A stretch of 64,000 nt of DNA, from positions 1 through 64,000 of the forward strand of contig NZ_LJAL01000006.1 of the NCBI RefSeq assembly GCF_001419985.1, given 5' to 3'. This DNA comes from Loktanella sp. 5RATIMAR09 (GTDB lineage Bacteria > Pseudomonadota > Alphaproteobacteria > Rhodobacterales > Rhodobacteraceae). Under the pieces are notes generated by a model. It worked only from the letters and a program-made list of their open reading frames with translations. It had not been told where the DNA came from and searched no databases. The translations under genes were made by a program, and so were the position numbers. Below, in pieces: positions 1,876 through 17,047 of this stretch (position 1 is the first letter of the stretch; every line of letters begins with the position of its first letter).

Positions 1876-2892
1876 CTAGGGCGGCCCCAGCGTGTTTCTC
1901 AAGACAAGCTTTGTATGCACCTCTATCGGCTCCAACGCGGCCCCGTCCCGCAAGTGTTTGACCAAGGCTTGCCCCGCCTTGCGTCCCATTTCGCGATGCG
2001 GCACATGCACCGTTGTAAGTGCCGGATAAACGACTTGGGCCAGTTCAATATCATCAAACCCGATGATCGACACATCACCGGGAACTGAAATACCACATTC
2101 CCTTGCACGTCTGAGCGCGCCGACAGCCAAAACATCATTGCCGCAAAAGACCGCGGTTGGCCTCGGGACATGAGCCATAACCCGATCAAAGGCTGCCGCT
2201 CCTTCATTGATCCCATATTTCGTTTCCACAAAACAAAGGGAGTCGCTACCCAGCCCTGCAGCGGTCATCGCTTGTCTGATTCCGTCACATCGCGCGGACG
2301 CGCGGTCATTCTGCGCCGTCTCTGCAGAGATCAACGCCAGCCGCCGATGTCCCATTTCGATCACTTTTTCGGCCATCTCCTGCATGGCCGCACTGTTGTT
2401 AAAGCCCACCGAGGGCCGCGTTGCCGCAGGATCAAAGGCCCATGTCAAAAGAACGGGCACATCTTGCCCATCCAGAAAGTCGTAGATTGCGGGATTGCGG
2501 CGATACCCGATCAGCAAAAGTGCATCCGCACCGCGCGCAACAAGCGACCTGATCTGCTCTTCCTCGGTGTCCGGCTGGTAGGCCGTGCTGGCAACGAGCA
2601 TTGTATACCCGTTGCGACGCAATTCTTCCTGAAATGCCTGAAGCCCGCGCGCAAAGATCGCATTTTCCATCGTTGGAATAATTGCACCGATTGTATTCGT
2701 GCGCCGCGCGGCCATCGCACGTGCACCGAAATTGGGCGAATACCCCAGCTCTGCGATTGCAGCGTTTACTTTGTCACGCGTAACATGTGCTACCTGATCG
2801 GGAAAATTGATTGCCCGCGAGACGGTTGCGGTCGATACGCCCGCAAGGGTGGCCACATCCTGCAAAGTCGGTATCGGTCGTTGAGATGTCAT
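1876..2892 (-). CDS. LacI-family transcriptional regulator, probable repressor of the sulfonate operon
   Basis: The 338-residue protein starts with a classic LacI helix-turn-helix and hinge (TLQDVATLAGVSTATVSRAIN near residues 8-27) and continues with a periplasmic-binding-protein-like effector domain ending in a LacI-type tail. The ATG at 2892 is preceded by GGAG at suitable spacing; in-frame ATGs at 2916 and 2961 are less well supported. It is divergent from hpsN and the intergenic gap carries two LacI-type operators, so it very likely controls the hps-com genes and possibly itself. The inducer is unknown. DHPS, sulfolactate or a derivative is the natural guess from context, not something the sequence shows. 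Confidence 0.9.
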   Translation of the reverse strand: MTSQRPIPTLQDVATLAGVSTATVSRAINFPDQVAHVTRDKVNAAIAELGYSPNFGARAMAARRTNTIGAIIPTMENAIFARGLQAFQEELRRNGYTMLVASTAYQPDTEEEQIRSLVARGADALLLIGYRRNPAIYDFLDGQDVPVLLTWAFDPAATRPSVGFNNSAAMQEMAEKVIEMGHRRLALISAETAQNDRASARCDGIRQAMTAAGLGSDSLCFVETKYGINEGAAAFDRVMAHVPRPTAVFCGNDVLAVGALRRARECGISVPGDVSIIGFDDIELAQVVYPALTTVHVPHREMGRKAGQALVKHLRDGAALEPIEVHTKLVLRNTLGPP

Positions 2893-2965: not shown

Positions 2966-2979
2966 TGTAAGGGCTTGCA
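2966..2979. promoter_or_regulatory. Upstream LacI-type operator (imperfect), overlapping the -35 region
   Basis: TGTAAGGGCTTGCA matches the perfect palindrome at 2989-3002 in 12 of 14 bases and has the LacI-family CG/GC-centred layout. Its centre lies 23 bases from that of the second site, about two helix turns, so both sites could be bound from the same face. It overlaps the predicted -35 (TTGCAT, 2975-2980) of the hpsN promoter. Confidence 0.65.
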
Positions 2980-3004
2980 TTTCGCTGATGTAAGCGCTTA
3001 CACT
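2975..3004 (+). promoter_or_regulatory. Predicted sigma-70-type promoter of the hpsN operon
   Basis: A -35-like TTGCAT (2975-2980) and a -10-like TACACT (2999-3004) are separated by 18 bases. Both elements are covered by the two operator palindromes, a layout expected of direct repression. Transcription would begin near 3010 and leave a leader of roughly 125 bases before hpsN. Confidence 0.45.
2989..3002. promoter_or_regulatory. Perfect LacI-family operator palindrome
   Basis: TGTAAGCGCTTACA is a perfect 14-base palindrome with the central CG step typical of LacI/GalR-family operators. It lies between the divergent lacI-type gene and hpsN and covers the predicted -10 of the latter. Confidence 0.8.
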
Positions 3005-3137: not shown

Positions 3138-4445
3138 ATGGCACGCGAATATCTCAAGAAAGCGACGCTGACCGCGCAGTCCGGCGCGTCTGATGTCCAC
3201 GACATTGTTCAGGGCATCCTGTCCGACATCGAGACAGGTGGCGACGCCAAGGCGATGGAATATGCTGCAAAGTTCGACAAATACGACGGCAACGTCATGA
3301 TCACTGCAGAAGAGATCGCGGCGGCGACCGCACTGGTGCCCCAAAAGCTGAAGGAAGACATCCAGTTCGCCCATGACAACGTCAAACGCTTTGCCGAGGC
3401 GCAGAAAGCAACCGTCAGCGACATTGAATACGAGATTGTTCCGGGCCTGATCGCCGGTCAAAAGGCCATCCCGGTTGATGCTGCGGGCTGTTACGTGCCC
3501 GGCGGACGCTACAGCCACATCGCCTCTGCGATCATGACTGTGACGACGGCCAAAGTGGCCGGTTGCAACCATATCGCCGTTGCTTCACCCCCGCGGCCCG
3601 GCGTGGGTGTGGCCCCTGCCATCATCTATGCGGCCCATATCTGTGGCGCGGACAAGATCATGGCGATGGGCGGTGTGCAGGGCGTTGCCGCCATGACTTT
3701 TGGCCTTTTTGGTCTACCCAAGGCAAACATTCTTGTCGGCCCCGGCAATCAATTCGTGGCCGAAGCCAAGCGTATCCTGTTCGGCCGCGTCGGCATCGAC
3801 ATGATCGCAGGCCCGACCGATAGCCTTATCCTCGCTGACAAGACCGCCGATCCGCATATCGTCGCCACCGACCTCGTCAGCCAAGCCGAGCATGGCTACA
3901 ATTCGCCAGTCTGGCTGGTCACGGATGACCGCGCGCTGGCCGAAGACGTGATGAACCGCGTGCCAGATCTGATCGCTGATTTGCCGGAAGTGAACCGTGA
4001 CAATGCCGCCGCGGCATGGCGCGACTATGCCGAGGTGATCCTTTGTGCCGACCGTGAAGAAATGGCTGCATGTTCGGATGACTACGCGCCCGAGCACCTG
4101 ACCGTTCAGGCCGAAGACCTGCCGTGGTGGCTGGATCGGCTGAGCTGCTATGGGTCACTGTTTCTGGGCGAAGAGACGACCGTGTCCTACGGCGACAAGG
4201 CATCCGGCACGAACCACGTTCTGCCGACATCGGGCGCGGCGTCCTATACCGGTGGTCTGTCGGTCCATAAATATATGAAGATCGTAACTTGGCAGCAGGC
4301 CACACGCGAAGGATCCAAGCGTGTTGCAGAAGCCACGGCACGGATTTCCCGCCTTGAAGGGATGGAGGGGCATGCCCGCGCGGCGGATGTGCGTCTGGCC
4401 AAATACTTCCCCGGTGAAAACTTTGATCTGACGCCAGATGAGTGA
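3138..4445 (+). CDS. hpsN: Sulfopropanediol 3-dehydrogenase (histidinol-dehydrogenase-like)
   Basis: The 435-residue protein belongs to the histidinol dehydrogenase fold (VPGGRYSHIASA near residue 120, SQAEHG near 248, NHVLPTSGAA near 357) but has GPTDS where true HisD has GPSE. Known HpsN enzymes oxidise (R)-DHPS to (R)-sulfolactate with two NAD+ in the cytosol. The neighbours (SDR, Zn-alcohol dehydrogenase, sulfopyruvate decarboxylase) support HpsN over HisD. The ATG at 3138 has AAGG upstream. The gene end overlaps the next gene by 8 bases. It heads the operon behind the LacI-type operators. Substrate choice rests on context and family resemblance. Confidence 0.85.
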   Translation: MAREYLKKATLTAQSGASDVHDIVQGILSDIETGGDAKAMEYAAKFDKYDGNVMITAEEIAAATALVPQKLKEDIQFAHDNVKRFAEAQKATVSDIEYEIVPGLIAGQKAIPVDAAGCYVPGGRYSHIASAIMTVTTAKVAGCNHIAVASPPRPGVGVAPAIIYAAHICGADKIMAMGGVQGVAAMTFGLFGLPKANILVGPGNQFVAEAKRILFGRVGIDMIAGPTDSLILADKTADPHIVATDLVSQAEHGYNSPVWLVTDDRALAEDVMNRVPDLIADLPEVNRDNAAAAWRDYAEVILCADREEMAACSDDYAPEHLTVQAEDLPWWLDRLSCYGSLFLGEETTVSYGDKASGTNHVLPTSGAASYTGGLSVHKYMKIVTWQQATREGSKRVAEATARISRLEGMEGHARAADVRLAKYFPGENFDLTPDE

Positions 4446-5199
4446 TCCGCGCGATCTCTTTGACCTGACGGGTCGTGTCGCTTGCGTCACCGGCGCAAGT
4501 GCGGGCCTCGGACAGCGCGCTGCGATTGCGCTGGCTGCGGCTGGTGCGAAGGTCGTGGGCGTAGCCCGCCGCGCCGACGCGTTGAACGGTTGGGCCGCCG
4601 AGACAGGGGCGAATGCCGCTGTCGTGGCCGCCGATCTGTCACAGCGGGATCAGATTGCCGATATTGCGGCAAAGGTCGCCGCACCCTTTGGCGCACCCGA
4701 TATCGTCGTCCATGCCGCAGGGATTAATACCCGAGAGGCGGCAGATGACGTGACGGACGCGGGCTGGGACGTGACGATGAACCTCAATCTCGCGGCCCCC
4801 TTCTTTCTCAGCCAAGCCTTTGCTCCTGCGATGAAGGCCAAAGGGTGGGGGCGCATCGTGAATTTCGCATCATTGCAGACGACACGGGCGTTTCCGGGTG
4901 GCATTGCCTATGGCACATCCAAAGCAGGTATTGGCCAGTTGACCCGCGCGATGGCCGAAGCGTGGTCCAAGGATGGCATCACCGCCAATGCAATCGGTCC
5001 GGGGTTTTTTCCAACCGAATTGACAGGACCGGTCTTTGCCGACTCCGGACGCGCCGCCCGCAACGCGGCGCAAACGTGCGTGGGCCGCAACGGGGCCTTA
5101 TCGGATATTGACGGCCCGCTCTTGTTTCTCTGCTCGGATGCGTCGTCCTATGTGACGGGTCAGGTCTTGATGGTCGACGGGGGTTTCACAGCGAAATGA
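4438..5199 (+). CDS. hpsO: SDR-family oxidoreductase, probable DHPS 2-dehydrogenase
   Basis: This is a 253-residue classical short-chain dehydrogenase: a Rossmann motif VTGASAGLG near residue 17, a catalytic Ser in NFASLQ near 144, and YGTSKAG with the Tyr and Lys near 158. It overlaps hpsN by 8 bases and the following alcohol dehydrogenase by 4, so all three are probably translated together. In characterised hps pathways, two 2-dehydrogenases interconvert DHPS enantiomers through a keto intermediate so that HpsN receives its preferred isomer. That role is inferred here from position. The symbol is assigned by analogy and could be exchanged with that of the next gene. Confidence 0.7.
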   Translation: MSDPRDLFDLTGRVACVTGASAGLGQRAAIALAAAGAKVVGVARRADALNGWAAETGANAAVVAADLSQRDQIADIAAKVAAPFGAPDIVVHAAGINTREAADDVTDAGWDVTMNLNLAAPFFLSQAFAPAMKAKGWGRIVNFASLQTTRAFPGGIAYGTSKAGIGQLTRAMAEAWSKDGITANAIGPGFFPTELTGPVFADSGRAARNAAQTCVGRNGALSDIDGPLLFLCSDASSYVTGQVLMVDGGFTAK

Positions 5200-6176
5200 A
5201 AGCGCTTGTTTATGACAACGTGGAAACGCTTGTTTACCGCGTGATGCCTGATCCGGTGCCGGGCGCGGGCCAAAGCCTCATCAGGATTGAGGCTTCGGGC
5301 ATTTGCGGCTCTGACATGCATGCCTTTCTTGGCCATGACGAACGGCGACCCGCCCCGCTCATCCTTGGCCACGAGGCCGCTGGCGTTGTCATGGGCGGTG
5401 AGTTGGACGGCACACGGGTCACGATCAATCCGCTTGCGACCTGTGGTCTGTGTCGGGCCTGCAAGTCCGGCCGCGATAACCTTTGCCCTGACCGCATGAT
5501 TATTTCCATGCCCCCGCGCGAGGGAGCATTTAGTGACTATGTCGTGATGGCCAACCGGAACCTTGTGACCGTGCCCGATGACGTACCGCTGACCAAGGCA
5601 GCTTTGGCCGAACCCCTGGCCTGCGGGTGGCATGCGGTCCGGCTCGGGGCTGCGGCACTCGATATGCCGCTTGCCGACGCAAAATGCGTTGTGGTCGGCG
5701 GGGGCGCGATTGGTGTGGGGGCTGCACTTTGCCTGCGGGCATTTGGCGCAACCGACATCAAGGTCATAGAACCCAATACCCTGCGCCGCAAAACGCTTGA
5801 CCTGATCGACGGATTTGAGGCCGTCGCACCCGGCACCGTAACCGAGGCTGACCTTGTCATTGACGGCGTCGGCTATGCCGCCACCCGCGCCGATGCCACG
5901 GCCATCACCCGGCCTGGCGGTGTCATCATGCATATCGGTCTGGGCGAGGCGACAGGCGGTTTGGACATCCGCCGCATGACGTTGCAGGAAATCACATTCA
6001 TCGGCACCTATACCTACACCGCCGAAGATTTCCGCCAGACCGCTGCAGCAATTTTCGACGGCCGTCTTGGCCCGCTCGACTGGACCGAGGAACGCGCACT
6101 TGCTGACGGGCAACAGGCCTTTGCGGATATCCGGGCTGGTGTGGTCGCCGCGCCCAAGATTATTCTACGCCCATAA
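5196..6176 (+). CDS. hpsP: Zinc-dependent alcohol dehydrogenase, probable second DHPS 2-dehydrogenase
   Basis: This 326-residue medium-chain dehydrogenase has the catalytic-zinc signature GICGSD near residue 33 and GHEAAG near 58. The structural-zinc loop CGLCRACKSGRDNLC is near residue 83, and the Rossmann segment VVGGGAIGVG near 167. It oxidises a secondary alcohol with NAD(P)+. Its overlap with the SDR gene (ATGA) and its place between hpsN and comDE point to the DHPS enantiomer-conversion step. The exact substrate is inferred from synteny. An HpsP label is tentative, since sorbitol/threonine-dehydrogenase-like proteins share the fold. Confidence 0.7.
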   Translation: MKALVYDNVETLVYRVMPDPVPGAGQSLIRIEASGICGSDMHAFLGHDERRPAPLILGHEAAGVVMGGELDGTRVTINPLATCGLCRACKSGRDNLCPDRMIISMPPREGAFSDYVVMANRNLVTVPDDVPLTKAALAEPLACGWHAVRLGAAALDMPLADAKCVVVGGGAIGVGAALCLRAFGATDIKVIEPNTLRRKTLDLIDGFEAVAPGTVTEADLVIDGVGYAATRADATAITRPGGVIMHIGLGEATGGLDIRRMTLQEITFIGTYTYTAEDFRQTAAAIFDGRLGPLDWTEERALADGQQAFADIRAGVVAAPKIILRP

Positions 6177-6204
6177 GACAGACAGAACCCCAAGGAGGTT
6201 TGGC

Positions 6205-6618
6205 ATGTACAAGAACATTCTGGTCCCGATGGCCCTTGATCACGGTATTGGCGAAAACAGCGTCGCAATAGCGCGCCGCCTGTTGTCTGAAGGCGGCAAA
6301 ATCACAGCGCTGCACGTCTATGAAGCGCCCGAAGGGTCGGTCGGGGCCTATATCGACGAAAGTGTCGTGCAAAACGCATTTGATCGGGCCAAAGCGCGGC
6401 TGGAAGAACGTATCGCTGCGATGCCTGACGTGTCATCCATGATCGTCAAAGGCCACAGCGGGCGCACCATCATTGATACCGCCACAGCTTTGAAAGCTGA
6501 TTGCATCGTTATGGGCTCCCACAAACCCGGGCTGATTGATTATTTCCTCGGCTCGACGGCGGCGCGTGTGGTGCAACATGCGCCTTGCGCTGTTCACGTG
6601 GCACGCGACATCAACTGA
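6205..6618 (+). CDS. Universal stress protein (UspA family) inside the sulfonate operon
   Basis: The 137-residue single Usp domain carries the ATP-binding signature GSHKPGLIDYFLGSTAARVV (residues near 105-125), fitting the G-x2-G-x9-G-S/T pattern of nucleotide-binding Usps. The ATG at 6205 sits behind a strong AAGGAGG (6192-6198). It lies 28 bases after the alcohol dehydrogenase and 55 before comD on the same strand, so it is very likely co-transcribed with the catabolic genes. What it does there is unknown. Usp proteins are often linked to energy stress or to TRAP transporter operons, and the latter may explain its presence in sulfonate gene clusters. Confidence 0.85.
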   Translation: MYKNILVPMALDHGIGENSVAIARRLLSEGGKITALHVYEAPEGSVGAYIDESVVQNAFDRAKARLEERIAAMPDVSSMIVKGHSGRTIIDTATALKADCIVMGSHKPGLIDYFLGSTAARVVQHAPCAVHVARDIN

Positions 6619-6673
6619 CCCACCCCCATCACCCACCGCCCCACAGCGGGGCGCAAACAGGAGACTTAAGGCC

Positions 6674-7180
6674 TTGAGTATCAGCAAGAAGATCGTGGAT
6701 GACTTTGTCGCCAACGATGTATCCTTCATCACCACTGTGCCGTGCAAGCAGTTGGCCGGTGTGATCGACGAAGTCGAAGCACGCCCGGAAATCTTCCACA
6801 TCCCGTCCAACAAAGAGGATGAGGGCATGGGCCTTTGCGCGGGTGCCTTCATGGGCGGCAAGCGGCCTGCCATCATCATGCAGAACACCGCGATCGGTGT
6901 GACCATCAACACGCTGGCCACGCTGACACAGTACTACCGCATGCCCCTGCCGATGCTCATCAGCTACCGCGGTGAGCTGCGCGAGCCCGTGGCCTGTCAG
7001 GTTGAAATGGCGGTGCACACCAAGGCACTGCTGAACCAGATGAACATCCCGACCTATCATTTCCACAAGGAAGCGGACGCGGATGAGCTGGACGCGATCC
7101 TGAAATACACCTTCATGTGCAACAAACCTGTGGCGATCCTGACGGATGCGTCCTTCTGGGGAGGCTACGGCGACCAATGA
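6674..7180 (+). CDS. comD: Sulfopyruvate decarboxylase, alpha subunit
   Basis: This 168-residue protein is the TPP pyrimidine-binding half of a split decarboxylase. The segment HIPSNKEDEGMG contains the conserved Glu that activates TPP, and a PCKQ motif lies near the N terminus. With ComE it decarboxylates 3-sulfopyruvate to sulfoacetaldehyde. The start is read as TTG at 6674 because AGGAG lies ten bases upstream and no in-frame ATG fits the family N terminus; the longer frame to 6536 would overlap usp. It overlaps comE by ATGA. Phosphonopyruvate decarboxylase is the close alternative, but no phosphonate gene is near, and slcD plus hpsN favour sulfopyruvate. Confidence 0.85.
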   Translation: MSISKKIVDDFVANDVSFITTVPCKQLAGVIDEVEARPEIFHIPSNKEDEGMGLCAGAFMGGKRPAIIMQNTAIGVTINTLATLTQYYRMPLPMLISYRGELREPVACQVEMAVHTKALLNQMNIPTYHFHKEADADELDAILKYTFMCNKPVAILTDASFWGGYGDQ

Positions 7181-7731
7181 TCCGTTCTGAAATCCTGCGC
7201 GAGATCGCGCCAATCCTTCATGACCATCTGGTCGTCTGCAACATCGGTCTGCCCAGCCAAGAGCTGCACATGATCGACGATAACGCCAAGAACTTCTACA
7301 TGCTGGGCACAATGGGCCTTTCATCCTCAATCGGGCTGGGTCTGGCCCTGGCGCAGGACAAAACCGTCATTTCCATTGATGGTGACGGCTCTGTCCTGAC
7401 CAACCTTGGCACCCTGCCGACGATTGCCAACAACGTGGCCGACAACTTCATTCTGTTGATCGTCGACAACGGCTCTTACGGCTCCACCGGGGATCAGCCG
7501 ACCTATGCTGGCAAGAAAACCAAGCTGGAAAACGTCGCCAAAGCCTGTGGCTGCGAAAACGTCGTTGTCTGTCAGGACGTGGACACCGGCAAGGTCTTGC
7601 AAGAGGCCATCGACAGCAAGCAGATGACCATCATCGTCACCAAATGCGACAGCGGCAACATCAAGCTGCCTGTCATCACGATGGACCCTGTGGTGATCCG
7701 TGATCGCTTTATGAAAGCGGTTGCCAGCTAA
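7177..7731 (+). CDS. comE: Sulfopyruvate decarboxylase, beta subunit
   Basis: This is the 184-residue TPP pyrophosphate-binding half: the TPP motif starts at GDGSVLTNLG and ends with VDNGSYGSTG, spaced as in the family. It pairs with ComD. The ATG at 7177 overlaps the comD stop (ATGA), and its own stop overlaps slcD (TAATG), so subunits and next enzyme are probably made in fixed ratio. The product, sulfoacetaldehyde, would normally go to Xsc (acetyl phosphate plus sulfite), which is not encoded in this window. Confidence 0.87.
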   Translation: MIRSEILREIAPILHDHLVVCNIGLPSQELHMIDDNAKNFYMLGTMGLSSSIGLGLALAQDKTVISIDGDGSVLTNLGTLPTIANNVADNFILLIVDNGSYGSTGDQPTYAGKKTKLENVAKACGCENVVVCQDVDTGKVLQEAIDSKQMTIIVTKCDSGNIKLPVITMDPVVIRDRFMKAVAS

Positions 7732-8837
7732 TGGCGCCAAAGATCCATTCCAGCGAAGACGCGCGCAGGCTCGCCCGCAAACGCCTTCCCTGGATGGTCT
7801 TTGACTATATCGACGGTGCCGCTGGCGCCGAAACAGGGGCCGCGCGAAACCGTGCGGCCTTTGACAATCTGGACCTGCGGCCCCGCATCCTGCGCGACGT
7901 CAGTGACCGGTCATTGTCTGTGCCTTTGTGGGACAAGCAAACCAAGGCCCCTTTCGGCATCAGCCCGATGGGCATGTGCAACCTCTCTGGCCCCGGCGCA
8001 GACATGATGCTGGCGCGATTGGCCGCCCGCGAAAACGTGCCCTTGGGCGTCTCCACCGTGGCCTCCACCGCGATGGAGCCGCTGATCGAAGCGGCCGAAG
8101 GCAACGCTTGGTTCCAGCTTTACTTCAGCGGCGACGGCACCGGCACCTTCAAACTGGTAGAACGGGCCAAGGCCGCAGGTTATGACACGATCGTCCTGAC
8201 CGTGGATGTGGCCGAGGTCGGGCGCCGCCCGCGCGAATTGCGTCACGGCTTCACCATGCCGTTCAAGATCGGCCCCAAGCAATTCATCGACTTCGCCCTG
8301 CACCCACGCTGGTCGCTCACCTCGCTTTACGCAGGCAAACCGCAGATGGCGAATTTCGACATGGAGGGCTATGATTTCGACCGCACCGAAAGCCGGGCAC
8401 GCGCGGATTGGGACACGCTGACCCGTTTGCGCGACATGTGGCCCGGCAAACTGGTGGTGAAAGGCGTGCTGGATGCAGAGGACTCCGTCGCCCTCAAGAC
8501 CGCTGGCGTTGACGCGATCCAGGTTTCCAGCCACGGCTCTCGCCAACTCGACAGCGCGCCCCCACCCATTCTGGAACTCGCCAAAATCCGCGGCGCAGTT
8601 GGCCCTGACTATCCGCTATTCTACGACACCGGCCTGCGCAGCGGCGAAGACGTGGTCAAAGCCTATGCGCAAGGTGCGAATTTCACCTTTTTCGGCCGCG
8701 TCCTGCAATTTGCCATCGCTGCTGGCGGCGAGGAAGGGTTGCGCGAGCTCTGGTCGGTCCTGAAAAACGAGACCAGCATCACGCTCGCGCAGATCGGCAA
8801 GCGGTCCCTGATCGCAGAGACCGCCACCAAGGGCTGA
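7731..8837 (+). CDS. slcD: FMN-dependent alpha-hydroxy-acid dehydrogenase, probable sulfolactate dehydrogenase
   Basis: The 368-residue TIM-barrel protein belongs to the lactate/glycolate oxidase family (N-terminal segment RKRLPWMVFDYIDGAAG, FMN site near SPMGMCNLSGPG). The catalytic-His motif reads SSHGSRQLD instead of the usual SNHGGRQLD, which may reflect the larger, charged sulfonate substrate. In Roseovarius, a dehydrogenase of this name feeds sulfopyruvate to ComDE, matching this gene order. The electron acceptor is probably the respiratory chain. Its stop abuts the stop of the convergent dabA without a spare base. A generic L-lactate dehydrogenase is the main alternative. Confidence 0.78.
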   Translation: MAPKIHSSEDARRLARKRLPWMVFDYIDGAAGAETGAARNRAAFDNLDLRPRILRDVSDRSLSVPLWDKQTKAPFGISPMGMCNLSGPGADMMLARLAARENVPLGVSTVASTAMEPLIEAAEGNAWFQLYFSGDGTGTFKLVERAKAAGYDTIVLTVDVAEVGRRPRELRHGFTMPFKIGPKQFIDFALHPRWSLTSLYAGKPQMANFDMEGYDFDRTESRARADWDTLTRLRDMWPGKLVVKGVLDAEDSVALKTAGVDAIQVSSHGSRQLDSAPPPILELAKIRGAVGPDYPLFYDTGLRSGEDVVKAYAQGANFTFFGRVLQFAIAAGGEEGLRELWSVLKNETSITLAQIGKRSLIAETATKG

Positions 8838-11246
8838 CTACGCCGCAAGCGCGCCTTCGGTTGCGTCACCCTCAAACGCCACCCATTTCAGGTCACCGTC
8901 ATAGCGCTCGGACATGGCGCCATTTTGGTCAAGCGTGAACAAATGCAGCCAGCTGTTGTCAAATAGGGCGCGCACGTTCGGGTGCTTCTCCAAAATCGCG
9001 GTGATCGCTTCGGCGGGCGCTTCAACGCAGACAGACAGCCGCAGGGGGTCATGGGCATAACCCGCACCATCGTGCACCGACTGCCACGGCAAACCGCCGC
9101 GCAAAACGCCACCGTTGCCCTCAACCACGCCCACACCGCCGGTGACATTGTGCAACAGCTTGTTGCCCGCCCCAAAGACGTCAGGTGCAACGACCGACCC
9201 GTAGTATTGCAGGCTGATCCAGCTTGCGACGACGACAGGGGCGGTCAGGATCAACTCGAGCACACCGAAGCCGTCGTCCTTTTGCCAGTCATAGTCATGC
9301 AGGAACGCACGCCCGGCCAATCCCTTGCCTTTGGTGCGTGCGCGGGGTGCCGCAATGAACGCCTTGCACCCTGCCAGCGCCCACTCGGGCCGCGTTTCCG
9401 ACCAGTCACGGCTCCGCTTGGCCACGTCGTTACCGTTTGCCGCGCGCGGCAGGCGCAAAGCCCGCTCTGTCCGCGCCAACTTGCCCGCAGACGCTAACCA
9501 GTCCTGCGCTTTGGCAAGGTGGCGCGCGTGGTCATGGCCTGCAAAATCGCCGTCAAAGATCGTCACTGCATCCGTCGTCGTGTCATGCAATCCCCCCACA
9601 AAGAGCGTATCTTCCGGTATCGCGATCCCGTTCCTCGCCAGCCCATCCCGCACATCCTTGTCGTTCAGGATCCCCGCGAGGAGGCGTGCATTCACGTCAC
9701 CGCTATAGCCGCCGCAGGCGCCGCAATGCAGCGCACTGGCATGCGGGTTGTTCACAACATTCGCGCCATGCCCCAGCAGTAGAACCAATGGCGCAAAATT
9801 GCCTGTCAGGGACATCGCGCCAAGGATTGCGGTGGCGGCCCCGATCCGGTCTTCGAGACCAAAACCCGGGTCCAGAACGGGCACCTGTTTGTCCGGTCCC
9901 TTTGCGTGATCAAGCCCCAAGGCGTCACGCAGCAATTTACCCATATAGACGGGTCCGCTTGCTTCCACAAAGGCAAAGGACGACACCGCCGCCAGCTTGA
10001 ACCTGCCCCACGCCCGCCCCGCACGCGCGGCAAAGCGCGCGTTCAGATCGGCATGCGCCTCAGCCTCACCGCCTGCTTTACTTGTCACACCGTGGTTCAG
10101 CAAAACCGGAAGGCGCTGTTCGGCCACATCAGAAGCAAAGCTCTGGTGAGATGCCGTCAGACCAAAGAAACCCGCAAACCCCAGCGTTTGAATAGCGGGA
10201 TCAACGCTTTCCAGCGCGCGCCGGAACACCTCGGACCGCACATCGATACAGAACGCCGCCTGCAGCGCGGGCCGGCCGTCGTGCGTTGGTAAAGGCGTGC
10301 GCGAGAGGGTTTCGGCCAATGCGCGCTGTCCGGCAAACTCTGCTGCCGCCTGCAAGGTTGCATCAATCAGGTGTTCGGTAGACGGGACTGCGGGTGTGGC
10401 GTGCGCCTTCGCAATCTCCACCCACTTCTTTTCGATCTCTTTAGCGTACTTCAAGTAAAGCGCCTGCTCCCAGACCAGACGGATTGTGAGCAAATCTGTC
10501 GTTGTCAGATCCGTTCCGCCCGCGAGCTCTGCCTGCCACAACCGATACCGTGCAACCTGTGACCACCCGCCAAGCCCCAGCAGCAATTGGTGAAAATAAG
10601 TCTCCGTTGCTGCCGCCGACACTCCAATCACATCGACCGCTGTGACAAGCGCCGTGCGCGTCCGTGCCGGTGTTTTCGCAACCAGTTCTCCAAAGCCGCC
10701 AAGACCTGCAATTTCAGGCGTCAGATCACGGCTGGCAAAGTCCCGCCACGCATCAAAGGCACGGCGTCCGGGTTTGTTCTGCCATAGCGCCTGACCTGCA
10801 TCAAAATAGCCCGCAGCCCAGCTGCCGAAACGCTCGGCCACGATGCCGGGCCAGTCGATCCCTGACACCTCAGAAGCAAGGTCAGCAATCGTCGGGAGCG
10901 CATGCGGCAACGGCGCTTTCTGCGCGGCTGCCGCCTTAAGTGCCGCAATATCCTTGGCTGCCTCTGGGCACTTCGCCAGTGCTGCGGTCAGATCGGCGTC
11001 ATTGATTGTCCCGTCTGCGATTTTGGTCTGGTACCAATCCCGCGGCATTGTCACCGTTGTTCCGGCAACCCTGTCCAACAGCGCCGCGACCTGCGGTAGA
11101 CTGTTCTCTGTCTGTCCCAGAAACGGGTTCACCGCGACAGAAGACGACAGCGGCCAAAGCGGTGGAATGGCGCGGCCTGCGGCTTCCGCCTTTGCAATGA
11201 CTTCCAGATGCGCGCCGGAATAGCCTGCGTATGTTTCCGCTTTCAT
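8838..11246 (-). CDS. dabA: DabA-type inorganic carbon transporter subunit (DUF2309)
   Basis: This 802-residue protein matches the DUF2309/DabA family, which resembles a beta-carbonic anhydrase domain and with DabB takes up inorganic carbon in an energy-coupled way. Putative zinc ligands and catalytic residues are visible in FCIDVRSE (Cys and Asp), [12 protein letters not shown] (His) and [11 protein letters not shown] (Cys). The start at 11246 overlaps the dabB stop by one base (TAATG). The surroundings are otherwise heterotrophic, with no RuBisCO or carboxysome gene here, so the bicarbonate probably supports anaplerotic or carboxylase reactions. This last point is inference. Confidence 0.88.
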
Positions 11247-12829
11247 TATTCTGCTCCTTTGCCGGATTGTGTTTGTTTCCAACCGCCGATCATCCGGTCA
11301 GAGATTGCGTTGATGTAAAGTCCGTTGGACAAGTGCACCCGAAGGCCCTGTGCGGCGGGATGGTAGGACCACAGCGGCAATGTTGCCTGCGCAAGGGCCA
11401 CCAGACCAAAACTGACCATCGCCAGCAGGATCAGCGCCCATTCCAGCGCGCTTGCAGGTGGTGTCGCCGGAAGTGTCCCCGCCGTGAGCCATTCGGAAAC
11501 ACGCTGCAGGACAAGATAGCTGACAGTCACAGCCCCCGCATAAACCGCTGTCCGTTGCGTCAGCGCGCGCGGTGCCTCATCCGCAAAACCTTGGGCCAGA
11601 AGATAGGCGACACCGAAGATCAGGATCGCACCAAGGGCGATGGCCTGCGGTGATTTGCCACCAAAATCAAAACCCAGCCCGAGGATCGCGTAGACGACAC
11701 CATAGATCACCAAAGCCACGACAAATGCCCGTGCCACCGCACCAAGATCAGGCACAGCGACAGGCCCCGGCTTGCGGATGGCCGCGACATTCTGCACGGC
11801 GTTGCCAGCGGACAAAAAGGCATGCGCTTTGTAAAGCGAGTGCGCCACGATGTGCAGCAGGGCCAGCGGGAAGAGCGCCAGACCGCATTGCAGGATCATA
11901 AAGCCCATCTGCGCAATCGTGGACCAGGCGAGCGAGGTTTTGACAGTAGACTGCGTGAGCATAACCAAGCCGCCAAAGAGCGCCGTAAAGCCACCGATCA
12001 GGACCAGAAGCGCCAGCACCAAAGGTGACAACAACATCACATCGGCAAAGCGGATCAGCAGAAAACCACCAGCATTGACGACACCCGCATGCAGCAAGGC
12101 AGAGACAGGGGTCGGCGCCTCCATCACCTCGGTCAACCAGCCATGGGTCGGGAACTGCGCCGATTTGAGGACGGCCGCAAGCCCCAGCAGTGCCGCCGCC
12201 GCCAGCGCCAGCCCGCCACCCGTTCCCTGTGCAGCCGCGCTCAGGATCGCCGAGATTTGCGTTGTGTTATATGTGCTGACAAGCATGAGCATGGCACCAA
12301 GCACCGCAGCATCGCCGATCCGCGCCATAGTGTATTTCTTGCGCGCCGCCCGCTGGGCTGCCACGCGCTCTGGATAGAAGAGCAAGAGCTTGTGCAGGAA
12401 GGCGCTCGTCGCGACCCACGCCGCGAAGAACTGGAACAGATTACCTGCCTGAATGAGAAAAAGAACCGCTGCAAGCGTCGCCAAAAGCCAGAATGTGAAA
12501 ACATCCTGCCGCGCTTCACCGTCCAGATAGGTGCGCGCATAGCGCACCACCACCCAGCCGATGAACGTGACCAGCAGCAACATCACAACACTTACGATGT
12601 CCAGCCGCACCGAGAGCCCGATTTCAAAAAAGCCAATCAAGATACTGTCGCCGCTACCATTGCCGGCCAGCACGATCGCGGACAGGACAGCAACCAGAAC
12701 AGCACCGAGGCTTGCGTATTCCGCGAGCTGCGCAGCTTTTCGGGCAGAGATACCCTTCAAGAAGCGCGGCGCAAAGGCGGCGCCGATCAAGATCAGAGGC
12801 GCCAGTAGCGGTAACGCGTTGAGCAGCAT
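11246..12829 (-). CDS. dabB: DabB-type membrane subunit (proton-antiporter/NuoL-like)
   Basis: The 527-residue polytopic protein has about a dozen hydrophobic segments and the proton-translocating transporter core of the NuoL/MrpA family, including [26 protein letters not shown] split over a conserved lysine and histidine helix. It lacks the long NuoL C-terminal arm and sits directly upstream of dabA. In DAB systems this subunit supplies cation-gradient coupling. The ATG at 12829 has GGAG six bases upstream; an ATG at 12841 is in frame but has poor ribosome binding. It is often mis-called NADH dehydrogenase subunit 5. Confidence 0.86.
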
Positions 12830-12841
12830 GTCGGTCTCCAT

Positions 12842-12930: not shown

Positions 12931-13806
12931 ATGCCTGACATGAACTACAATCACCTGCGCTACTTCTGGGCCGTCGCCCATGAAGGAAACCTGACGCGGA
13001 CAGCCGAAAGGCTGAACCTGTCGCAATCCGCGCTCTCGGTGCAGATCCGCAAGCTGGAGGACCGGTTGGGTCACGCGCTTTTTGAACGGCGCGGGCGGCA
13101 GTTGCACCTGACCGAAGCGGGACGGATCACGCTGGACTATGCGGATACGATTTTCGACGCGGGAAAGGACCTTCTGGGAACCCTCAGCCAACAAGGGCGG
13201 CCACGTCAGGTGCTTCGGGTCGGCGCGCTGGCAACACTGTCGCGTAACTTCCAGATTGAATTTCTGCGCCCCCTGCTCGGCCTTGCCGATATGGAACTGG
13301 TATTGCGCTCGGGCACCTTGGTGGAATTGCTGCAAAGCCTTGAAACGCTGAACCTCGATGTGGTGCTGACCAATCGCGCACCCGCACATGATGCGATGTC
13401 GAAATTCACCTCACAGCCGATTTCGGATCAAGCGGTGAGCTTGATTGGCACGCCGGAACGCCTGCGCGCTGATCTGCCTTTGGCAACTCTTCTGCGCGAC
13501 AACCCGATCATCGTGCCAACCGAAGAAAGCCCTGTGCGAGCCGGCTTTGACCGGCTTTGCGCACGCGAAGGGATTACGCCGACACTCGCCGCAGAGGTTG
13601 ATGATATGGCGTTGATGCGCCTGCTCACGCGTGAGGATATCGGGCTCGGGGTGTTGCCACCGATTGCCGTGCAGAACGAACTGCGCAACGGCATGTTGAT
13701 TGAATCCCGCCACCAGATGGGCCTGACCGAGAGTTTCCATGCGGTCACGGTGCCGCGAAAATTCCCCAACCCGTTGCTGGAAACACTGCTCACCAGCGTA
13801 CCTTAG
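12931..13806 (+). CDS. LysR-family regulator, probable controller of dabAB
   Basis: The protein (about 291 residues) has the LysR winged HTH (NYNHLRYFWAVAHEGNLTRTAERLNLSQ split around residue 5-30) and a substrate-binding domain resembling NhaR-type regulators. It is divergent from dabB across 89-101 bases, the usual LysR arrangement, so dabAB is the likely target. The signal might be CO2 or bicarbonate limitation, which is inferred only from the target. Starts at 12931 and 12940 are both possible. Its stop codon overlaps that of convergent oxyR by 4 bases. Confidence 0.85.
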   Translation: MPDMNYNHLRYFWAVAHEGNLTRTAERLNLSQSALSVQIRKLEDRLGHALFERRGRQLHLTEAGRITLDYADTIFDAGKDLLGTLSQQGRPRQVLRVGALATLSRNFQIEFLRPLLGLADMELVLRSGTLVELLQSLETLNLDVVLTNRAPAHDAMSKFTSQPISDQAVSLIGTPERLRADLPLATLLRDNPIIVPTEESPVRAGFDRLCAREGITPTLAAEVDDMALMRLLTREDIGLGVLPPIAVQNELRNGMLIESRHQMGLTESFHAVTVPRKFPNPLLETLLTSVP

Positions 13807-14702
13807 CGCGCCAGATTCTGACCGACCTGCTGCACCACATTGGCAATCTGACGCAATTGCCCCGCAAGCGGATTGGTCTTGCGCCAGATCATGCCGACAG
13901 TGCGCTTCGGCTGCGGTTCCGCAAAAGAACTGATCACAACAGGGGCCGAACGGGTTTCAACCGGCACTGCCATCTGCGGGATCAGTGTTACCCCGATCCC
14001 CGCGCCCACCATTTGCACCAGCGTGGACAGCGAACTTCCGTCCAGACCTTCGCGGGCCGCGGCACTTTGCAGATTGCAAAACGACAGGGCCTGGTCGCGA
14101 AAACAATGCCCCTCTTCCAGCATCAAAAGACGCATCTCGCGCAGGTCCTCGGGGTTTGGCACGGGGCGCTCCGCATCCTTAATCGGACGCACCAACATCA
14201 GACTTTCGTCAAAAAGCGCCACCTCTTCGAAGCCCGACTCGAACACGGGCAGGGCCACAATCGCCGTATCAATCTGCCCGTTTGTCAGTTCTTCAATCAG
14301 GCGCGGAGTGACGGTTTCGCGGATATGCACGTCAAGGTCGGCATGGGCGCGCGCCAGATGCCCGATGAGACCGGGCAAAAGATACGGGGCAATCGTGGGA
14401 ATCACCCCGATCCGCAAACGCCCCACCAGTCCCGCTTGCGCCGCGCGCGCCATCTCACCCAACTCGTCAACGGCGCGCAGAATATCGCGCACACGCAACG
14501 CCCACTCTTCGCCGAATGCGGTCAGGCGCACCTTACGCGGGCCCCGTTCAAACAAAGGTGTACCCAGACTTTGCTCCAGCTCTTTGATCTGCACGGACAA
14601 GGCGGGCTGGGAAATCGCACAGACATCAGCCGCACGGCCGAAATGGCCATGACGGGACAGGGCCTCGAAATAACGCAACTGTTTCAATGTGAGGTTCTTC
14701 AT
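13803..14702 (-). CDS. oxyR: Hydrogen-peroxide-sensing LysR regulator OxyR
   Basis: The 299-residue LysR protein carries the redox signature EEGHCFRDQALSFC near residue 195-210. Its two cysteines correspond to the disulfide pair that activates OxyR on peroxide exposure. The HTH is at the N terminus (HFGRAADVCAISQPALS). It is divergent from katG, its classical target. The ATG at 14702 is the start that gives the standard family N terminus. Confidence 0.93.
   Translation of the reverse strand: MKNLTLKQLRYFEALSRHGHFGRAADVCAISQPALSVQIKELEQSLGTPLFERGPRKVRLTAFGEEWALRVRDILRAVDELGEMARAAQAGLVGRLRIGVIPTIAPYLLPGLIGHLARAHADLDVHIRETVTPRLIEELTNGQIDTAIVALPVFESGFEEVALFDESLMLVRPIKDAERPVPNPEDLREMRLLMLEEGHCFRDQALSFCNLQSAAAREGLDGSSLSTLVQMVGAGIGVTLIPQMAVPVETRSAPVVISSFAEPQPKRTVGMIWRKTNPLAGQLRQIANVVQQVGQNLAR

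Positions 14703-17047
<2,345 letters not shown>

Follow-up and report, generated by a model that had tools for sequence, protein, structure and literature searches.

A probable Xsc-route operon for dihydroxypropanesulfonate degradation in Loktanella sp. 5RATIMAR09

The first 64,000 nucleotides of contig NZ_LJAL01000006.1 of Loktanella sp. 5RATIMAR09 (RefSeq assembly GCF_001419985.1), the whole of which we call the window, carry at positions 3138-8837 seven plus-strand genes in the order hpsN, hpsO, hpsP, usp (hpsQ), comD, comE and slcD. With a probability of about 0.86, we read them as the Xsc-route form of an operon for the degradation of 2,3-dihydroxypropane-1-sulfonate (DHPS) in a Roseobacter-group bacterium close to Yoonia/Loktanella, probably under the control of the regulator HpsR. 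The reactions, the regulation and the flux described below are carried over from characterised homologs. DHPS, a sulfur compound of algal origin, is described as an important ecological currency exchanged by phytoplankton and marine bacteria (PMC11131964).

In the proposed pathway, HpsN would oxidise R-DHPS to (R)-sulfolactate in one four-electron step, SlcD would convert this to sulfopyruvate with the electrons probably passing into the membrane, and ComDE would decarboxylate sulfopyruvate to sulfoacetaldehyde. Xsc, whose gene lies in a taurine locus of a second contig (C4) next to genes for Pta and TauE-type exporters, would then form acetyl phosphate and sulfite. HpsO and HpsP would turn R- and S-DHPS, respectively, into sulfolactaldehyde, which an aldehyde dehydrogenase encoded elsewhere would oxidise to sulfolactate. 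A first-pass annotation of this DNA had proposed a route from DHPS to sulfoacetaldehyde, and in outline it was right.

Enzymes of the operon and the predicted pathway

The orthologs of hpsN, hpsO and hpsP are adjacent in the window and closely resemble characterised enzymes. HpsN aligns without gaps to PDB entry 8wwe (763 bits) and scores 515 bits against HpsN of Cupriavidus pinatubonensis (CpHpsN), while HpsO reaches 395 bits with 8wwf and HpsP 452 bits with 8wwd; the authors of these structures identify them as RpHpsN, RpHpsO and DsHpsP (PMC11131964). Catalytic and substrate-reading residues of HpsN are kept at R124, Y125, S126, H127, E319, H320, D353, K354 and H360, and H127 corresponds to the sulfonate-binding histidine described as the mark of HpsN (PMC11382572). 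Thr227 aligns with Ser226 of CpHpsN, and RpHpsN carries the same threonine. HpsO retains S145, Q147, Y158 and K162, and HpsP retains H59, E60 and E139, the three positions covered by its residue check.

The chemistry of these three enzymes has been described in PMC11131964, where HpsN leads from R-DHPS to sulfolactate, and the C3 hydroxyl (the primary alcohol) is the site at which HpsO and HpsP oxidise R- and S-DHPS, yielding sulfolactaldehyde. From this aldehyde GabD-2 leads to sulfolactate, and both HpsN and HpsO are R-specific (PMC11131964). The "two 2-dehydrogenase candidates" of the first-pass annotation therefore reflect an older proposal, which PMC11382572, published months later than PMC11131964, still keeps for HpsO and HpsP. 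Because the product of both enzymes is sulfolactaldehyde, completing the S-branch requires the aldehyde dehydrogenase GabD-2 and a dehydrogenase for S-sulfolactate, a step assigned to SlcC in the scheme of PMC11131964; S-DHPS would yield S-sulfolactate via HpsP. The operon has neither a GabD-2-type aldehyde dehydrogenase nor an S-sulfolactate dehydrogenase, and for SlcC this statement covers the operon alone. A genome search for succinate-semialdehyde dehydrogenase returned 12 matches with one above the cut-off (C4:268878-270221), a candidate GabD-2. Of the two enantiomers that the first-pass annotation had led to sulfolactate within the operon, S-DHPS would also require enzymes from outside.

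SlcD is an FMN_dh protein with (S)-mandelate dehydrogenase (6bfg) as its best PDB match, and L-lactate oxidase is likewise among its top matches. Its alignment with mandelate dehydrogenase covers the segment LHPRWSL, which we take to be part of the membrane-binding region of that enzyme. The domain and the active-site Tyr, Lys, His and Arg of the L-2-hydroxyacid flavin mononucleotide (FMN) dehydrogenases are present. Across 51 SlcD sequences including the one in the window, Y26, Y131, R165, R166, K244, H268 and R271 are invariant, and R165-R166 stands where the mandelate enzyme has Tyr-Arg.

It had appeared puzzling that HpsN should produce (R)-sulfolactate, as if SlcD had to accept an unusual isomer or an epimerase had to intervene. 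However, a parity calculation shows that exchanging CH3 for CH2SO3 relabels the S of L-lactate as R and leaves handedness unchanged. (R)-sulfolactate shares the handedness of L-lactate and fits the L-2-hydroxyacid dehydrogenase family of SlcD, so R-DHPS could be processed by HpsN and SlcD without an epimerase. The puzzle stems from a change of Cahn-Ingold-Prelog label, and SlcD is indeed listed as an R-sulfolactate dehydrogenase (PMC11131964); for R-DHPS, this clears the apparent contradiction.

Desulfonation had been expected to be encoded away from the operon, which proved correct. In this genome of 99.98% completeness, the only Xsc match above the cut-off lies on contig C4 (G000:C4:212153-213886; 912.8 vs 676.4 bits) in the gene order tauCBA / aminotransferase / tauR / xsc / tauE / pta / ackA-like / tauE. 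Here, the names TauE, Pta and TauA-type receptor and the aminotransferase family come from domain matches and the others from inspection. Domain PF20629 (GD_AH_C), which we take to represent SuyB, has zero matches in the genome, and the same search was positive in 5 of 14 control genomes. TIGR01275 gave no match above cut-off in this genome, and the best match to the CuyA model NF052482 reached 40.1 bits against a cut-off of 450. With no match above cut-off to any of these three models in the genome, the SuyAB and CuyA routes were rejected. Among three known routes, Xsc is therefore the sole desulfonating enzyme that we found, with a single match and neither SuyB nor CuyA detected. The first-pass annotation had also named suyAB or a second complete hps set elsewhere as potential carriers of the flux; neither was found, as the genome holds no SuyB and a single HpsN match at E<=1e-100.

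Gene layout, regulator and distribution

The seven genes form the tight unit that had been described, and their positions, strand and identities all hold (Table 1). Adjacent genes overlap by 8 bp (hpsN/hpsO), 4 bp (hpsO/hpsP) and 4 bp (comD/comE), the stop of comE and the start of slcD have a single base in common, and gaps of 28 and 55 bp precede usp and comD. The start of comD is most likely the TTG at 6674, downstream of AGGAGA. Within 3138-8837 there is no transporter, xsc or suyAB gene, as had been noted before, and elsewhere in the window this inspection covered the starts of predicted proteins. A scan for promoters and terminators gave a result at chance level.

Table 1. Coordinates of the operon, its regulator gene and the operator-like sites in the window
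Feature	Position	Strand	Assignment	Basis
hpsR	1876..2892	-	LacI-family regulator	ATG start 2892; PF00356 + PF13377
operator-like site 1	2966..2979	.	TGTAAGGGCTTGCA, presumed HpsR site	2 mismatches vs TGTAAGCGCTTACA
operator-like site 2	2989..3002	.	perfect palindrome TGTAAGCGCTTACA, presumed HpsR site	pattern match
hpsN	3138..4445	+	predicted metal- and NAD+-dependent R-DHPS 3-dehydrogenase, giving R-sulfolactate	8wwe match
hpsO	4438..5199	+	predicted short-chain dehydrogenase/reductase, R-DHPS to sulfolactaldehyde	8wwf match
hpsP	5196..6176	+	predicted zinc medium-chain dehydrogenase/reductase, S-DHPS to sulfolactaldehyde	8wwd match
hpsQ	6205..6618	+	small universal-stress-protein family protein	PF00582
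comD	6674..7180	+	sulfopyruvate decarboxylase alpha subunit	TIGR03845 148.8 bits, cut-off 147.95
comE	7177..7731	+	sulfopyruvate decarboxylase beta subunit	TIGR03846 248.3 bits, cut-off 221.5
slcD	7731..8837	+	predicted FMN-dependent sulfolactate dehydrogenase, probably membrane-associated	PF01070 374.9 bits

To place the operon among its relatives, we used the best 80 of 563 named relatives retrieved with HpsN, on which all locus counts rest. Fifteen of these loci did not extend over 4.6 kb upstream plus 4.8 kb downstream of hpsN and were dropped, leaving 65 covered loci. In the relatives that were inspected individually, genes were called from GC content by codon position, an approach prone to missed or mis-stranded genes (hpsP of L109 was recovered by tblastn). 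A second set comprised 56 genomes of the genus, our own included, with chosen thresholds of >=83% for hpsN and >=87% for hpsM; its genome lists were combined by hand. These genomes are related rather than independent, and since they include fragmented or incomplete drafts, the absence of a gene from such a draft is weak evidence. The GTDB loci overlap with them (L010 equals G014 by coordinates), so the locus and genus counts are not independent samples either.

The arrangement is common among the covered loci: 61 of them have hpsO, 62 hpsP, 46 usp, 48 comE and 45 slcD, and the combination of hpsNOP, comDE and slcD is complete in 40, always in identical order and strand (40/40). In the genus, 39 of 56 genomes have HpsN at >=83%. 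All 39 encode xsc, 13 encode CuyA, and comE accompanies hpsN orthologs in 38 of 39 genomes vs 2 of the 17 without one (Fisher p 1.3e-10, uncorrected for shared ancestry). Loktanella sp. PT4BL has an HpsN at 99%.

The first-pass annotation had defined the unit by the seven genes, which was correct as far as it went, and missed the LacI gene that lies upstream in divergent orientation and belongs to the DHPS operon as hpsR. In 57 of the 65 covered loci, the opposite strand carries a LacI homolog (>=40%) directly 5' of the operon, and in Ruegeria pomeroyi DSS-3 hpsR is the LacI gene SPO0590 (PMC4334477). In the window, hpsR could alternatively be read as a longer TTG frame starting at 2961. The two TGTAAGCGCTTACA-type palindromes at 2966 and 2989, spaced by 23 bp, are the window's two matches to this pattern (<=2 mismatches; 0.07 in shuffles). 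Across the window and the 80 loci, 11 of 81 regions had no usable gap between the LacI gene and the operon; of the remaining 70, 68 contain at least one site (<=2 mismatches) vs 0.05 in mononucleotide shuffles, and 49 contain paired sites spaced 21-23 bp vs 0.0 in such shuffles. We presume that HpsR binds the site pair at 2966-3002.

Our own genome holds four matches to the pattern. Apart from the pair in the window, these are two sites with 2 mismatches that were set aside, and since both fall inside predicted genes, HpsR looks like a local regulator. A control with the reversed pattern gave 19 matches per strand in the same genome, which is above the four of the pattern itself. The literature on hpsR and DHPS that we covered, from which subscription journals are mostly missing, yielded no account of a TGTAAGCGCTTACA-type operator. 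The paired operator-like site 5' of hpsN thus seems to be a new, if small, observation, and the motif could serve as a simple predictor of HpsR targets.

Some relatives carry shorter or different units. At L102:11850-14237 (G016), a LacI gene, hpsN and comDE occur with no match to hpsO, hpsP, usp or slcD in the fetched stretch, and at L109:2062-5414 (G035), on a contig of only 9.7 kb, a LacI gene, hpsN, hpsP and comDE occur without hpsO, usp and slcD. A separate HpsN-like gene directly follows tauABC at the taurine/xsc locus in L097:7125-8423, L099:12686-13984 and L100:7560-8867 (G015, G004 and G028). These genes are 68-69% identical to HpsN of the window and have the same key His, Glu, Asp and Lys, with GGRYAH replacing GGRYSH. 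HpsN-like copies of 67-70% were present in 9 of the 56 genus genomes, of which eight have no hpsN ortholog; because comE is absent from seven of these eight, the substrate of this copy may not be DHPS. Finally, L098:8977-14339 (G006) combines in one row a 70% HpsN-like gene, CuyA, a DegT-type aminotransferase, the cysteate racemase CuyB and a YeiH-type exporter, with both CuyA and CuyB above cut-off. It is tempting to speculate that this row oxidises an amino-alcohol sulfonate such as cysteinolate to cysteate.

On the 3' side, the operon of the window is adjoined on the opposite strand by dabA and dabB (8838-12841; PF10070 and PF00361), probably for inorganic carbon uptake. The same pair lies next to the operon in L010, L013, L103, L110 and L111, and dabA occurs in 3 of the 65 covered loci. 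These genes might be connected with the CO2 from ComDE, although nothing found here supports this. Farther away, at 13803-17047, a LysR-type gene is divergent from a gene for a 737-aa protein that is catalase-peroxidase-like judging by its start.

Uptake and alternative readings

Several observations weigh against our reading of the operon. ComD exceeds the TIGR03845 cut-off by 0.85 bit only, HpsN is also above the cut-off of the HisD model TIGR00069 (448.6 vs 243.8 bits), and 6le3, labelled gluconate 5-dehydrogenase, slightly outscores 8wwf as a match to HpsO (412 vs 395 bits). SlcD has no closely related solved structure and sulfolactate is its predicted substrate, while the S-DHPS branch has no named enzyme past S-sulfolactate. 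Moreover, no importer can be assigned. The search, which covered HpsM and DctP receptors (PF03480), gave no genomic match to HpsM at E<=1e-60. It returned nine DctP receptors, and only four of these could be aligned to HpsK (E<=1), with identities of 22-27%.

The tripartite ATP-independent periplasmic (TRAP) importer HpsKLM, the Roseobacter DHPS importer with experimental backing, was not found here and is common but not universal: hpsM occurs in 45 of the 65 covered loci, always directly upstream of hpsN, and TRAP genes are present in 30 and absent from 10 of the 40 complete loci. In the genus, 18 of the 39 hpsN-bearing genomes have HpsM and 21 (our own and 20 others) do not. In R. pomeroyi DSS-3, growth of an SPO0591 (hpsK) mutant on DHPS shows a deficit of 78.6% (PMC10130141). 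The same work describes DHPS transporters as common in deeply branching Roseobacter strains and retained in few lineages, so the patchiness of HpsKLM is not new. Inspection of 11 TRAP-less genomes revealed transporter genes of other types within ~10 kb of hps in G008, G028, G049 and G051, and a local importer is therefore possible in these four relatives. The importer may have been lost or replaced, but a weakly related TRAP or ATP-binding cassette (ABC) system could also serve for uptake. Tentatively, and at slightly less than even odds, we propose that the 21 genomes lost or never had HpsKLM and use a different importer, which in our case would be neither beside hpsN nor marked by an HpsR operator. 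If many genomes with hps genes lack HpsKLM, surveys that take this transporter as their marker would undercount DHPS users, and a second importer would remain to be found.

The TauABC transporter of the xsc locus is an unlikely candidate for DHPS import in TRAP-less genomes. TauA is encoded in our own genome and in 19 of the 21 TRAP-less hpsN genomes, and three inspected relatives have the HpsN-like gene right behind tauABC. However, TauA is equally frequent in genomes with TRAP (16/18), and this similarity makes its presence uninformative. Two TRAP-less genomes, the fragmented drafts G023 and G035, gave no match to TauA at E<=1e-80, and the tauABC mutants of DSS-3 were identified on taurine (PMC10130141).

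It seems distinctly improbable that the operon handles intracellular DHPS or sulfolactate, e.g., from sulfoquinovose breakdown, and needs no DHPS importer. Such a role would agree with the missing HpsM ortholog, with the formation of DHPS and sulfolactate in sulfoglycolysis (PMC11382572) and with the acceptance of sulfoglycolytic S-DHPS by HpsP (PMC11131964). Yet sulfoglycolysis gives S-enantiomers (PMC11382572), whereas HpsN and HpsO are R-specific enzymes with their residues conserved here, and the regulator, operator-like sites and gene order match those of TRAP-bearing DHPS operons.

That the pathway is over-read altogether, HpsN being a paralog of histidinol dehydrogenase and SlcD an enzyme for lactate or glycolate, is very hard to sustain: the TIGR00069 score and the best PDB matches of SlcD point that way, but HpsN scores far higher against characterised HpsN (763 and 515 bits) than against the best HisD chain (269 bits), has the marker histidine at H127 and shares its operon, as does slcD, with hpsO, hpsP and comDE.

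Comparison with known DHPS operons

The preferred reading, an Xsc-route DHPS operon, can be compared with described systems. In C. pinatubonensis, the cluster hpsRNOUPsuyAB likewise comprises hpsN, hpsO, hpsP and a regulator; unlike the window, it encodes a major facilitator superfamily (MFS) importer, HpsU, and the sulfolactate lyase SuyAB, and no ComDE or SlcD is named in it (PMC11382572). Roseovarius nubinhibens ISM (L047) resembles the window in having hpsN, hpsO, hpsP and usp and a LacI gene that adjoins hpsN with no TRAP genes between, but its fetched 21-kb locus has no comDE or slcD. The locus hpsR-KLM-NOPQ-slcD of R. pomeroyi DSS-3 (SPO0590-0598) has the LacI gene, hpsNOP, the Usp gene (a UspA gene named hpsQ there) and slcD in shared order and differs from the window by hpsKLM (PMC4334477). 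Its consecutive locus tags imply that no comDE lies between hpsQ and slcD (PMC4334477).

Gene content agrees with that of Jannaschia sp. CCS1 and Ruegeria sp. ANG-S4, for which the same set is listed: hpsNOP, slcD, comDE and xsc (PMC11382572). We liken them by gene set alone; in our genome, xsc is on another contig and HpsM was not found, and sulfolyase genes do not always adjoin hpsNOP (PMC11382572). With its arrangement common among relatives and its gene set already published (PMC11382572), the operon is a standard Roseobacter-group DHPS operon rather than a new one.

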